A stretch of 64,000 nucleotides of DNA from Fibrobacteraceae bacterium (GTDB lineage: Bacteria > Fibrobacterota > Fibrobacteria > Fibrobacterales > Fibrobacteraceae). The stretch spans positions 1 through 64,000 of the forward strand of contig JAGAKE010000001.1 in assembly GCA_017625775.1 (NCBI GenBank). The letters run 5' to 3'. Shown here in pieces: positions 6,609-64,000 of this stretch. Within the stretch, counting starts at the first letter, position 1; each line of letters starts with the position of its first letter. Made by a program: the position numbers and the translations under genes. The notes under the pieces were generated by a model that had not been told where the DNA came from, did not search any database, and saw only the letters and a program-made list of their open reading frames with translations.

Positions 6609-7760
6609 ATGAAACTCAAAACAAAACTTGGAATATTATTAATTAGCATTTCATCAGTAATGCTATATGTTGGTTGCTCAAGTAGCGATTCTTCTACCTC
6701 AGCGCCAGAAGATCTGGTTGCTAATACGTTAGCAGATTTACCAAATTGCACAGAGAAGCGAGAAGGTAAAACGGCTGTTCTTTTGGAAGATAATTCAACA
6801 TATTTATGTACAGAAGGGAAATGGACTTTTGTTTCGGCAGCGATAAATGTCGTTGAAAGTTTAGATGATTTACTAAACTGTACTAGTAAAATAGAAGGCG
6901 ATTCAAGTTATGTAAGCAACGAAAATACCGTGTATTTATGTATAAGTGAATCATGGCGAGAATTAGGAGAATTTGGGACTGTGTCAGATTCATTGCCAAA
7001 TTGCACAGAAAAACGAGAGGGAGAACGCGTCTTTTTGTCAGAAGAACATGTGACATTGATTTGCAATGCGAACAAATGGAAACGTTATGATATTTTTAGT
7101 GCTGTAGAAGAAGAGGAAAATTCTAAACCTAAAAGTAGTTCATCAGAAAATGAATGGGAAGATTATGAACCAGTAAGTAGTTCCTCGGTCAAGGTTTCTT
7201 CGAGCAGTACAAAAGTATCTTCAAGCAGTGAATCAGATGAGAAAGAAACATTCACAGATTCTCGTGATGGTCAAACTTACAAGTATGTTAAGATAGGAGA
7301 TCAAGTATGGATGGCTGAGAATTTGAATTATGAAACAGCTAATTCTTATTGCTATAATGATTCTACCGCAAATTGTAAAAAGTATGGTCGTTTATACACT
7401 TGGGAAACTGCATTGAATGTTTGTCCAAGCGGCTGGCATTTACCAACTGATGAAGAATTTGAAACTTTGAGATCAAATGTTGGTGGAAGTGATGTTGCTG
7501 GTAAAATGCTCAAATCCACAACAGGTTGGTATGATTATGGTAATGGTGTAGATAAGTATGGCTTTAACGTTCTCCCAGCGGGCTTCCGCGACTTCAATGG
7601 CATTTTCTACCTCGCGGGCAAGAGCGCGGATTTCTGGAGTGCTACAGAGGATGGTGAGAGCAGCGCTTACCGCTTGCGCTCGGATTACGACGTCGAGACT
7701 GCGCGCCTGGACTACCTCAATAAGGCCTACGCAACGTCGGTTCGTTGCCTCCGGGATTGA
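6609..7760 (+). CDS. FISUMP-domain lipoprotein, DGR target 1
   Basis: This is a 383-residue secreted protein. A lipoprotein signal ends at Cys23 (YVGC; Tyr at -3 is atypical). Three tandem repeats of about 40 residues follow, each with the pattern LPNCTEKREG...LIC/YLC...W (about 43-75, 85-120, 127-162). Next comes a Ser/Glu-rich linker and a C-terminal FISUMP domain (about 217-382) with a C-type-lectin-like look (WMAENLNY, YGRLYTW, CPSGWHLP, FWSATE, SVRCLRD). Residues 321-382 are a DGR variable repeat matching the template at 62679. The protein probably sits on the cell surface as a ligand-binding receptor. It stands alone with its own AT-rich upstream region. Its last residues were altered by an 83-base insertion. 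Confidence 0.92.
   Translation: MKLKTKLGILLISISSVMLYVGCSSSDSSTSAPEDLVANTLADLPNCTEKREGKTAVLLEDNSTYLCTEGKWTFVSAAINVVESLDDLLNCTSKIEGDSSYVSNENTVYLCISESWRELGEFGTVSDSLPNCTEKREGERVFLSEEHVTLICNANKWKRYDIFSAVEEEENSKPKSSSSENEWEDYEPVSSSSVKVSSSSTKVSSSSESDEKETFTDSRDGQTYKYVKIGDQVWMAENLNYETANSYCYNDSTANCKKYGRLYTWETALNVCPSGWHLPTDEEFETLRSNVGGSDVAGKMLKSTTGWYDYGNGVDKYGFNVLPAGFRDFNGIFYLAGKSADFWSATEDGESSAYRLRSDYDVETARLDYLNKAYATSVRCLRD
7569..7754 (+). repeat. DGR variable repeat VR1
   Basis: Sixty-two codons align without gaps to the template repeat at 62679-62864. By hand count there are 37 differences, of which 32 sit where the template has A. The non-A codon framework is identical, including a block at template codons 22-27 encoding FWSATE. 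The last 18 bases (TCGGTTCGTTGCCTCCGG) are identical in VR1, VR2 and TR and form the likely IMH initiation site. The segment is far richer in G+C than the gene around it. Confidence 0.93.
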
Positions 7761-7839
7761 TGTTTACGCATCTGTCTTTGTTTGCTCGGTCATGTCAACT
7801 CATGCTAGCATGGTTACCGCGGCTTTCGCAGCACTGGGA
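7757..7839 (+). other. 83-base insertion immediately after VR1
   Basis: Comparison with the VR2 locus shows that the sequence right after CCGGGA in VR1 resumes after 83 bases at CTTCAATTAACC. The insertion is flanked by a GGGA direct repeat (7753-7756 and 7836-7839). It supplies the TGA stop at 7758 and contains a perfect 12-base palindrome CATGCTAGCATG (7801-7812). Removing it would restore a C-terminus R-D-F-N-stop, matching the R-G-S-N-stop of target 2. Confidence 0.6.
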
Positions 7840-7889
7840 CTTCAATTAACCTCTTGGAGCGGTCTCTCAAGAGCCGCTGCCTTGCGTAA
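7840..7889 (+). repeat. Conserved post-VR tail with hairpin, copy 1
   Basis: This segment matches the sequence after VR2 (from about 63950 to the window end): CAATTAACC, then a short imperfect hairpin (CTCTTG ... CAAGAG here), then GCCGCTGCCTTGCGTAAG. A hairpin just downstream of the IMH is known to aid target recognition in the Bordetella phage DGR. The stem bases differ between the two copies although a stem can form in both. Confidence 0.65.
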
Positions 7890-8042: not shown

Positions 8043-8154
8043 TGTCATTGCGAACGCAGTGTAGCGATCTGCTAGCAATGAGATTGCTTCTGTCACTACG
8101 TTCCATCGCGAGTGACAAACAGATTGCTTCACCCTTGCAGGGTTCGCAATGACA
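8043..8154. repeat. REP-like palindromic element
   Basis: TGTCATTGCGAAC (8043-8055) and GTTCGCAATGACA (8142-8154) are perfect inverted repeats. Internal subrepeats resemble AGATTGCTTC and GCGATCTGC. This is the well-known dispersed palindromic type built on GTCATTGCGA / TCGCAATGAC seen in many bacterial genomes. The open frames across 7761-8319 are products of this repeat and have no protein character. Confidence 0.7.
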
Positions 8155-8322
8155 AAGCACGCTTAAACTTAAGTTAAAAAAAACGTCGGCCAAGGAAGGG
8201 GAGGCATGGAGGGGACCGTGCGGCCTTCGCAACTCCGAGTTTGAGTCCTCTCCAAAGAAAAGAATTGTAAAAAAACTATAAGTTATGGCGAATAAAATGA
8301 AGTAATCAATAACAACCAAAAC

Positions 8323-8946
8323 TTATAAAATTTGAATATTTTGAAAAAAACGCAAATAAATAAAAATAATTGTAAAAACAGGAATTAGAAAAACCCAAAA
8401 ATTTTTTAAATATGCACTTCTGTCAACAGAACTCATACTAGAATGATTCAAAAGAGAAAGAATACTATATAGGATAACTAATATTTGCCAGTAATTTAGT
8501 TCTTTGGTAAAAAGAGTAAAAAAAAGAAAATACAATAAAATAGAACCTACGATAGTTGGCGCTGCGGCAATTAAAGAATCTTGAATGGCTCGTAATAAAA
8601 ATGGTCCGCGATTAGAGTAACTTATGTGTCCAAGGCGTTCAGAGTGATTTTCAAAAACGCAAATTTCTTTTAATTTTGCACCTGTTAGTACACAAAAAAG
8701 AGCGTGTGAAAGTTCATGAACAAAAATTCCTGGGAAGGTGAAGTAGTTGCTAAAAAAGATGGCGAACTTTAAACCAAAAATCTTTTTTAAAATAGCAATC
8801 TCAATTTTTTCAAATAAATAAGTCAAAAATCCGAAAAGAATAACTGAAAAAATTAAAAATAAGGTGATTGCAAAAGAAATAACTATAAAATTCCATGGGG
8901 AATCGCCAAGTTGAAGTGTTTTTTCTAAAAGAATTGAAAAATTCAT
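8323..8946 (-). CDS. Integral membrane protein with HELSH motif (M50-like)
   Basis: This 207-residue protein is almost entirely hydrophobic, with about five transmembrane segments. It carries HELSH around residue 74, a match to the zinc-binding HExxH motif, in the context GIFVHELSHALF. This resembles the M50/M50B-like family of membrane metalloproteases or their relatives. A second acidic ligand (NxxPxxxxDG in true site-2 proteases) is not clearly visible; the sequence near residue 165 reads SSVDRSAY instead. It is transcribed divergently from the next gene. The substrate is unknown and it may not be proteolytic. Confidence 0.65.
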   Translation of the reverse strand: MNFSILLEKTLQLGDSPWNFIVISFAITLFLIFSVILFGFLTYLFEKIEIAILKKIFGLKFAIFFSNYFTFPGIFVHELSHALFCVLTGAKLKEICVFENHSERLGHISYSNRGPFLLRAIQDSLIAAAPTIVGSILLYFLFFTLFTKELNYWQILVILYSILSLLNHSSMSSVDRSAYLKNFWVFLIPVFTIIFIYLRFFQNIQIL

Positions 8947-61818: not shown

Positions 61819-62568
61819 ATGACTAGTGTTGAATTATACAAACTAGAAAAACAAAATACTTCTAGCATTCATCTGTTTTTAGCGGGTATGTTTTGGCATG
61901 CTTGGGAATTTTCTGCCTATCAATTTACAAGGTATTTTTCTCCTTATAAAATTCATTGGAAATTTGTAAAAAAAGTGGGAACCGAAATGGTTTATCTTGG
62001 GTTCCCTAAAAATGGATTAACGAAGGTTAAAGAAATTATTTTAGAGAAAAATTTCTTTATAAAACAAATAGATGAAAAACATTATGAAATTAATGGTTTT
62101 ATACCTTACAACGGCTTTGAATCCTGGAAGAAAGATATTGTAAACAATACAGAAAAATCAGAAAGTAATACATGTAAACTAATGTTTTTAGCTTATAAGG
62201 ATTTTTACGAAGCAACAAAATATATATACGAACGTACTAGTATAGTATCTAAAAACTTGAAATTTGGTTTAGCAGATAAATTACGTGAAAATTTTCTTGA
62301 GATTTTAGAACATTTACATGGTGTGGTTTGTGAAATAGAAACATTTAATACGCAATTGTTCCAAGAATTGTTTTGTAAAATTCAAATTAAATTAAGATTA
62401 CTTTTAGATTTAAAACAATTATCAATAAAACAATGGTTTTATATAAGTGGTTTGTTAGAAACAATAAAAAATAATTTAGGGCTAGAATCTGCTTATTTAC
62501 GAATGAGTAGAGAATGCCTATTGGAGTCCGGCAGCTTGCCCTCCACAGAAACCGCAGAGGAAGTATGA
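61819..62568 (+). CDS. MutS-like (MSL)/Avd fusion accessory protein of a DGR
   Basis: A 249-residue protein in two parts. Residues 16-92 resemble the MutS mismatch-recognition domain I pattern (HLFLAGMFWHAWEFSAYQF ... VYLGFPKNGLTKVKEI), as in the MSL accessory proteins of DGRs. Residues 122-225 match the Avd four-helix bundle: LADKLRENFLEILEHLHGVV, then KIQIKLRLLLDLKQLSIKQ and SGLLETIKNNLG. Avd binds the DGR RNA and reverse transcriptase. The template repeat lies 110 bases downstream, which confirms the context. The fusion is unusual; the MSL part is the less certain call. Confidence 0.8.
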   Translation: MTSVELYKLEKQNTSSIHLFLAGMFWHAWEFSAYQFTRYFSPYKIHWKFVKKVGTEMVYLGFPKNGLTKVKEIILEKNFFIKQIDEKHYEINGFIPYNGFESWKKDIVNNTEKSESNTCKLMFLAYKDFYEATKYIYERTSIVSKNLKFGLADKLRENFLEILEHLHGVVCEIETFNTQLFQELFCKIQIKLRLLLDLKQLSIKQWFYISGLLETIKNNLGLESAYLRMSRECLLESGSLPSTETAEEV

Positions 62569-62582
62569 AGGGTAAAAAAACA

Positions 62583-62638
62583 GAAAAAGAAATTCATTTT
62601 TCAGAAAAAATATTCTTTGAAAAAAGCCTTTCTTTTTC
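62583..62638 (+). repeat. Inverted repeat in the DGR RNA upstream of TR
   Basis: GAAAAAGAAA (62583-62592) and TTTCTTTTTC (62629-62638) are a perfect 10-base inverted pair between the Avd-like gene and the template repeat. They may fold the leader of the template RNA. Confidence 0.45.
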
Positions 62639-62678
62639 ATTTACGCAAAGCTGTATTCAACCAATGGCGAGTCACTTT

Positions 62679-62870
62679 GTTCTCCCAGCGTGCTACCGCA
62701 ACAACAATGGCAATTTCAACAACGCGGGCAAGAACGCGAATTTCTGGAGTGCTACAGAGAATGGTGAGAACAACGTTTACAACTTGAACTTGAATTACAA
62801 CAACGAGAATGCGAACCTGAACAGCAACAATAAGGACAAAGCAAACTCGGTTCGTTGCCTCCGGGACTCC
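62679..62870 (+). repeat. DGR template repeat (TR)
   Basis: A 192-base segment aligning without gaps to VR1 and VR2. If read in the VR frame, 22 of its first 62 codons are AAC or AAT, so most variable positions are adenine doublets, the standard design that gives wide amino-acid diversity when A is mutated. It is probably non-coding: an ORF through it (62514-62930) has no protein character outside the repeat. At three sites (template codons 5, 33 and 49) both VRs carry the same non-A-derived base, so TR has drifted since copying. Confidence 0.93.
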
Positions 62871-62913
62871 GAACTTTTTAATCAAATAATATTAGGTATA
62901 AGTAAGAAAAAAT

Positions 62914-63335
62914 GGAAATATATACCTTAATGATTTAGATCATTATATTAAACGAGAATTAAAAATTCGTAGTTATGTCGTTATGTAGATGACATGGTTT
63001 TGGTTCATAAAAATAAGGATGTGCTTCTGGAAAGTATTCCCAAAATACGAAGATTTTTAAAAGAAAAATTAAATTTAGAGCTTCATCCTAAAAAGATTTC
63101 ATTGCAGCCGGCGTATAATGGATTTCTTTTTTTAGGAGCGTATGTTTTGCCATATAGAATGTATCCAAGTAGAAGAATTGTCAAAAACTTTAAGGAAAGT
63201 ATGCGTGGTAATTATTTACTAAAAAAACAAAAGGAATTAGAAAAAAGTTATTTAGGATTATTTTCCCATTTTGATGCTTATAAACTTAGTCAAAAGATTA
63301 TATTTAAACACGAGATACAAGGAGAAACCTTATGA
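62914..63335 (+). pseudogene. Degraded DGR reverse transcriptase
   Basis: Starting from about 62917 the frame reads NIYLNDLDHYIKRELKIRSYV, then a one-base loss at about 62979-62980 (GTC-CGT became GTCGT) shifts into RYVDD (62979-62993), MVLVHKNKDVLLE, LKEKLNLELHPKK and FLFLGAYVLPYR, the thumb and C-terminal part of a group II-like DGR reverse transcriptase. Motifs before YVDD, including the first catalytic Asp, are missing; only about 45 bases separate TR from the remnant. The protein would normally be about 350-400 residues. The C-terminus, overlapping target 2 by four bases, is intact. Confidence 0.85.
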
Positions 63336-63958
63336 AAAGTAAGCTACTCACAATAATTTCGATGTCATTGCTATTCACTGGAATGTCTTTTGCAGGGCAG
63401 CAAAAGGGAACGATGAAAGACCCACGCGATGGTCAAACCTACAAAACAGTGAAAATAGGCAAACAGGTTTGGATGGCGGAGAATTTGAACTATGATATTA
63501 AACATAGTTATTGCTATGATGAAGCCCCTGAAAATTGTCAAAAGTATGGCCGATTATACACTTGGGCTGCGGCAAATTATGTTTGCCCAAGTGGCTGGCA
63601 TTTACCAACTAAAGAAGAATTTGAAACTTTGATGTCAAATGTTGGTGGAAAAGAGACTGCAGGTAAAATGTTAAAATCAAAACAAGGGTGGGATCCATAC
63701 GAACATGAATTTGAGCATGCTTTGCAAAATGGTAATGGAATAGATAAATATGGTTTTAATGTTCTCCCAGCGGGCCTCCGCTACAGCTTTGGCAATTTCG
63801 GCGACGCGGGCAAGGACGCGAGTTTCTGGAGTGCTACAGAGTATGGTGAGAACTACGCTTACTACTTGTACCTGTATTACGACGGCGAGAATGCGTACCT
63901 GGGCCACAGCTCTAAGGACTTCGCTTACTCGGTTCGTTGCCTCCGGGGCTCCAATTAA
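63332..63958 (+). CDS. FISUMP-domain secreted protein, DGR target 2
   Basis: A 208-residue protein. The signal peptide (cleavage after about FAG, residue 22) is type I without a lipobox. The FISUMP domain follows directly (about 28-207) with DGQTYKTVKIG, WMAENLNYD, YGRLYTWAAAN, CPSGWHLPT, FWSATEYGE and SVRCLRGSN. Residues 144-207 are the variable repeat VR2. AAGGAG precedes the ATG by seven bases, and the start overlaps the reverse-transcriptase remnant. Compared with target 1 it lacks the N-terminal repeats and linker. Probably a secreted or periplasmic binding protein. Confidence 0.92.
   Translation: MKSKLLTIISMSLLFTGMSFAGQQKGTMKDPRDGQTYKTVKIGKQVWMAENLNYDIKHSYCYDEAPENCQKYGRLYTWAAANYVCPSGWHLPTKEEFETLMSNVGGKETAGKMLKSKQGWDPYEHEFEHALQNGNGIDKYGFNVLPAGLRYSFGNFGDAGKDASFWSATEYGENYAYYLYLYYDGENAYLGHSSKDFAYSVRCLRGSN
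63761..63952 (+). repeat. DGR variable repeat VR2
   Basis: Aligns without gaps to TR. Over codons 1-62, 30 of 35 differences fall on template adenines by hand count; all five exceptions are at codons 5, 6, 33, 38 and 49. The terminal 18 bases are identical to TR and VR1. Asn-poor and Tyr/Gly/Asp-rich replacements at the Asn positions are typical DGR outcomes. Confidence 0.93.
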
Positions 63959-64000
63959 CCCCTGGGAGCGTAGCTCCCGTGGGCCGCTGCCTTGCGTAAG
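63950..64000 (+). repeat. Conserved post-VR tail with hairpin, copy 2
   Basis: TCCAATTAACC, a perfect hairpin GGGAGC-GTA-GCTCCC, then GGGCCGCTGCCTTGCGTAAG to the window edge. The same arrangement follows VR1 at 7840-7889 apart from the 83-base insertion. Confidence 0.65.

Follow-up and report, generated by a model that had tools for sequence, protein, structure and literature searches.

A diversity-generating retroelement with a broken reverse transcriptase in a Fibrobacteraceae assembly has probably rewritten five FISUMP genes

Introduction

The diversity-generating retroelement (DGR) of Bordetella phage BPP-1 (Brt, Avd, Mtd) combines, in the published account (PMC3240598), an adenine-biased pair of template repeat (TR) and variable repeat (VR), an Avd-type bundle, a hairpin after the VR and a C-type-lectin-like target. 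A locus resembling it in each of these respects lies near the end of the stretch analysed here (the window), the first 64,000 nucleotides of contig JAGAKE010000001.1 of a Fibrobacteraceae bacterium (C32:1-64000; the contig continues to 158,043), from an assembly of 1.98 Mb in 55 contigs that is 71% complete. It differs from the phage system in having five dispersed chromosomal targets, an extra N-terminal domain on Avd and a broken reverse transcriptase (RT).

FISUMP (Fib_succ_major) domains, the targets in this locus, were reported as DGR targets in 2014 for 9 proteins from human-gut metagenomes (PMC4159848), and they occur as such in Bacteroides phages as well (PMC8143477); the present locus differs in its host group, in a fusion of a MutS domain I-like part (MutS_I) to Avd, and in the number of targets per TR. 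A metagenome survey states that remote targets, of which there are four here, escape its method (PMC8144416). MSL (MutS-like, PF01624) is a known DGR accessory protein which brings a MutS domain I into a DGR accessory, as is predicted here, the difference being that MSL is listed as a separate protein and the domain is here part of Avd (PMC10053308). FISUMP targets and a separate MSL accessory are already in print. No report of a one-protein MutS_I-Avd fusion was found among the papers listed (12 of 3,701 in a broad search for such a fusion) in a searchable literature whose coverage did not include the primary MSL survey; a paper bearing on MutS, Avd and DGRs deals with the deletion of MutS from E. 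coli. That primary source is reportedly Wu and others 2018. To our knowledge it is not established how mutated DGR cDNA reaches the target and avoids correction by mismatch repair.

We put at roughly 85% the probability that the locus is a DGR whose template rewrote five FISUMP genes, with an accessory protein in which a predicted MutS domain I is fused to an Avd bundle, and with an RT that is broken in the assembly.

Results and Discussion

Adenine bias in five variable repeats

An earlier note on this DNA had described an Avd-type accessory gene, an adenine-rich TR, an RT remnant with a YVDD motif and a FISUMP target ending in a VR, and checks of open reading frames (ORFs) and profiles found their order and coordinates to be correct: the Avd ORF (61819-62568), the TR (62678-62870), the RT remnant (62868-63335) and the FISUMP ORF (63332-63958) follow one another on the plus strand. 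Adenine accounts for 65 of the 193 bases of the TR, which holds 22 AAY codons (AAC or AAT, for Asn) in the frame of the target. The alignment of the TR with the VR of the adjacent target (63760-63952) is free of gaps over 193 columns, as had been claimed, and a hypergeometric test gives p 6e-13 for the 31 of its 36 mismatches that fall on the 65 adenines of the TR.

The TR was run against the whole genome, as the earlier note had proposed, by a plain DNA similarity search with no adenine filter. Five VRs were matched: the adjacent one (C32:63760), a second in the same window (C32:7569) and those of three further targets on other contigs (C48, C54 and C13), the C48 locus lying on the other strand. 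Mismatches at TR adenines numbered, in that order, 31/36, 32/37, 31/40, 31/38 and 34/46, or 159 of 197 together, with hypergeometric p values of 4e-13 to 3e-10 across the five and 48-52% of template adenines changed in each VR. Two outcomes named beforehand as refuting a DGR, differences spread evenly over all bases and a lack of any profile match for the Avd and RT segments, did not occur. Among the 38 mismatches at other bases is a T to G change, close to the 5′ end and common to all five VRs, so that either the present TR is not their exact last parent or this site lies outside the copied tract. Since the template differs from the VRs mainly at adenines, the five FISUMP genes have likely been rewritten by error-prone reverse transcription.

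FISUMP targets and hypervariation at asparagine codons

The adjacent target (208 aa) matches TIGR02145 (E 1.9e-60, 204.5 bits, curated cut-off 41.65) and PF09603 (111.8 bits, cut-off 33.9), each above the cut-off; FISUMP matches across the genome number 21. Its predicted model is C-type-lectin-like, with the VR at the C-terminal end of the fold; Foldseek alone gave no match to this model below E 0.38, and a sequence search of solved structures with the FISUMP protein found none. The C-terminal domain of Legionella Lcl (8q4e), counted among the nearest known systems, shows 19% identity where the two align. The second target in the window, a plus-strand gene of 383 aa (6609-7760) identified by the TR search, carries its VR at 7569-7756. 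Judged by eye, the first protein has a signal-peptide-like start and the second a lipobox-like start, and the FISUMP targets are likely exported proteins. That they bind something may be supposed.

Hypervariation was assessed by aligning the TR translation with 12 FISUMP proteins from a database search (P0207-P0217 and P0219 of 120 listed, with P0218 excluded for its different architecture), columns with fewer than 10 residues being dropped. All 22 TR Asn codons proved hypervariable, with 4-8 different residues each (mean 6.05), compared with a mean of 1.44 at the 27 VR codons that have no A at base 1 or 2 and of 1.42 over 138 columns outside the VR. The 12 proteins mix alleles with paralogues, and the contrast between AAY codons and other columns does not depend on this mixing. 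The pattern is the clearest sign that a TR-like template wrote the related FISUMP genes; on mutagenic retrohoming itself it bears indirectly.

One ORF at another locus (L091:8109-9488) encodes a single FISUMP protein with two VRs of one TR (8111-8305 and 8665-8863, minus strand). Elsewhere (P0094, P0101 and similar; L089:7850-9313), RT ORFs of relatives run in frame through the TR, giving database entries with FISUMP and RT domains; proteins listed with both domains may be read-throughs and not real fusions.

The assembly contains only a broken reverse transcriptase

The RT family profile PF00078 matches positions 62952-63137 (E 6.3e-7) with one internal stop. A tblastn comparison against RTs from the lineage and from two relatives resolved the remnant into three plus-strand pieces in two frames; the part of the protein that precedes the YVDD region is mostly absent. 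The first piece (62868-62924, matched by P0088) shares the frame of the C-terminal piece (62979-63335), which includes YVDD; the middle piece (62914-62976, matched by P0086, P0088, P0089 and the RTs of the two relatives) is in a different frame. The earlier note had suggested a search for a full-length DGR RT in the same genome; neither PF00078 nor P0089 found a second RT elsewhere in the 71% complete assembly. With only this remnant and no other RT in the assembly, the locus was filed as a DGR by descent that is broken here and not as a working DGR. The earlier description of a DGR cassette driving FISUMP receptors accordingly holds for descent, to which the adenine bias, the variation at Asn codons and the C-type-lectin-like target model attest, and lacks support for the driving of variation at present.

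Because the assembly is 71% complete, an RT could still act in trans, and we regard it as a minority possibility that the DGR works in this strain, either with an RT encoded in a portion of the genome that the assembly lacks, or because the broken RT is an artefact of an assembly in 55 contigs. P0089, an RT of 363 aa that looks complete, has its last 118 residues 94% identical to those of the window, and the gene order shared with G001, a genome of the same genus, is interrupted at the cassette; both speak for that account. Against it stand the failure of both searches to find a second RT and the presence of broken forms in other assemblies of the lineage: in P0086 (50 members) the C-terminal half of Avd runs straight into the RT without a TR, and P0088 (36 members) begins inside the RT, a start that may not be real. 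We read this as a recent loss of the RT in parts of the lineage, which these sequences suggest.

From shortly ahead of YVDD through to their ends P0088 and P0089 have almost the same sequence, and they diverge upstream, as if RTs recombine near YVDD; P0089 is found on one contig of 2,170 bases and could be a chimera. The longest contigs of P0086 and P0210 agree in length (35,019), so the form with Avd running into RT is likely also near a FISUMP target.

An Avd protein with a predicted MutS domain I-like part

The Avd-type accessory gene encodes 249 aa in two domains. Its C-terminal part (aa 117-229, positions 62167-62505) corresponds to the Avd four-helix bundle. Profile NF033474 matches aa 127-221 (E 1.1e-4, 22.5 bits, under the curated cut-off of 80). 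In the wider family it matches 18 of 19 proteins with E values no higher than 0.1, the lowest being 1.1e-11. Comparison of predicted structures also found the Avd fold here, so the assignment as Avd-type was upheld by the sub-threshold match, the wider family and the fold. Pfam-A gave no match for the window protein. Among solved structures the top hit of the Avd profile, a proteasome subunit at E 0.023, was put down to chance, and the four-helix protein 2gsc came next. Among annotated phages there was no Avd match for the window protein or for a relative from genome G012.

With moderate confidence, based on models, the N-terminal domain (aa 1-110, positions 61819-62148) appears to resemble MutS domain I and to be conserved in relatives. 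When 10 of the 19 members of the family alignment A1 were compared with PF01624, the best score, from a relative, was 19.2 bits against a curated cut-off of 20.6; the window protein had no match. At the Phe-X-Glu mismatch motif of MutS, alignment A2 (the window protein, 9 relatives and P0001-P0075, the 12 lowest-ranked of the 87 hits being left out) has Phe in 85 of 85 sequences and, at the Glu position, Gln in 81, His in 2, Arg in 1 and Lys in 1. Since this Glu is replaced, the domain is termed MutS_I-like and not a member of MutS_I. Two further alignments comprised 17 of 30 fetched MutS loci (A4) and the window protein with 57 of 120 listed hits (A5).

The low sequence scores and the replaced Glu would also fit an N-terminal part that is not a DNA-binding MutS domain but an alpha/beta domain whose likeness to MutS domain I is fortuitous or goes back to distant descent and which binds RNA or contacts the RT, and Avd does sit in an RNA-protein complex in a solved DGR (8ub7). 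We think this rather unlikely, because MutS is what Pfam, a profile comparison and two structure aligners each point to, the invariant Phe25 and a GFP motif align with MutS, and MSL with PF01624 is recognised as a DGR accessory (PMC10053308).

Distribution in relatives and phages

In a set of 100 genomes that includes the window's own, an Avd match was present in 17, the RT tail in 18 and both in 14 (overlap counted by hand). An adenine-biased TR/VR pair was found in 16 of 20 fetched regions of relatives, most of which have RT ORFs of at least 350 aa. Of 19 pairs, 18 have the VR inside an ORF similar to the window FISUMP, and the other lies at a contig end (hand-counted). Mismatches in these pairs fall at A in 474 of 509 cases, a figure biased upward because pairs had been admitted only if A (T for the minus strand) accounted for 70% or more of their mismatches. 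A matching locus is held by G011, of the same family, and a match is present in Fibrobacter intestinalis ATCC 43854 (contig NZ_FUWU01000058.1), whose loci L085 and L126 have a complete-looking RT; in G001 and G002 neither Avd nor RT was matched. That the TR and VRs are merely diverged FISUMP paralogues, with no retroelement action, was a reading invited by the many FISUMP genes of the genome and was dropped as having next to no probability, being contradicted by the adenine bias of each of the five VRs (p no larger than 3e-10), the confinement of variation to A-bearing codons and the adjacency of Avd and RT to the TR here and in relatives.

The same accessory type occurs in 11 loci of IMG/VR contigs. 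In one (L174:4397-8160), this Avd type, an RT ORF and a FISUMP ORF stand beside tail- and baseplate-like ORFs (named by eye), a layout that makes it likely that prophages too, and not only cells, use the element.

A possible mechanism

By analogy with known DGRs, and in view of the substitution pattern and the long RT ORFs of relatives, an RT-Avd complex would reverse-transcribe the TR RNA and make errors at A. The resulting cDNA would go into those FISUMP genes that have a hairpin behind the VR, in place of their 3′ end, and the MutS_I-like domain of Avd, as far as its fold predicts, may contact target or heteroduplex DNA. The product would be a C-type-lectin-like domain, as predicted, with 22 exchangeable Asn-codon positions on a protein whose start, by eye, makes export likely. 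The RT deletions probably froze the repertoire here, and kin with complete RTs could continue to vary theirs. More tentatively, and in our opinion improbably, DGRs of the Fibrobacter phylum would possess a mismatch-handling arm: a MutS domain I within Avd, lacking an ATPase and with Phe-X-Gln instead of Phe-X-Glu, would grip the adenine-mutated heteroduplex at the target and shield new mutations from host mismatch repair. A repair-protein-like domain fused to a DGR accessory has a role that can be tested by removing one domain, and the lineage offers a natural comparison between kin with complete-looking RTs and strains with a likely frozen set of five variable, likely exported proteins.

The hairpin after the variable repeat and the genomic setting

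A hairpin-forming 16-mer with a 6-bp inverted repeat follows the adjacent VR (63963-63978, plus strand). It has four copies in the assembly, all after VRs, and the reversed control pattern has 0. The distance is 10 bases after the VRs of C32 (63760), C54 and C13, and 97 bases after that of C48; downstream of the fifth VR (7569-7756) only a different, imperfect repeat was seen by eye. Folded as single-stranded DNA, the adjacent hairpin somewhat outperforms shuffled sequences, with a z of -2.05 and 9 of 200 shuffles folding as well. A simple test on 18 of the 19 pairs of relatives found inverted repeats on both the VR and the TR side, which makes it uninformative there; the same test missed a repeat for two VRs of the window genome. 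Positions 7757-7860 of the window and the C48 locus share about 95 bases of similar sequence between the VR end and the region of the hairpin, as though an insertion had taken place there.

No DGR was found beside a methyltransferase in G001, where the genes flanking the cassette sit on two contigs. Synteny with G001 breaks within positions 61557-64897, the genes on the left being found on G001:C20 and those on the right on G001:C1.
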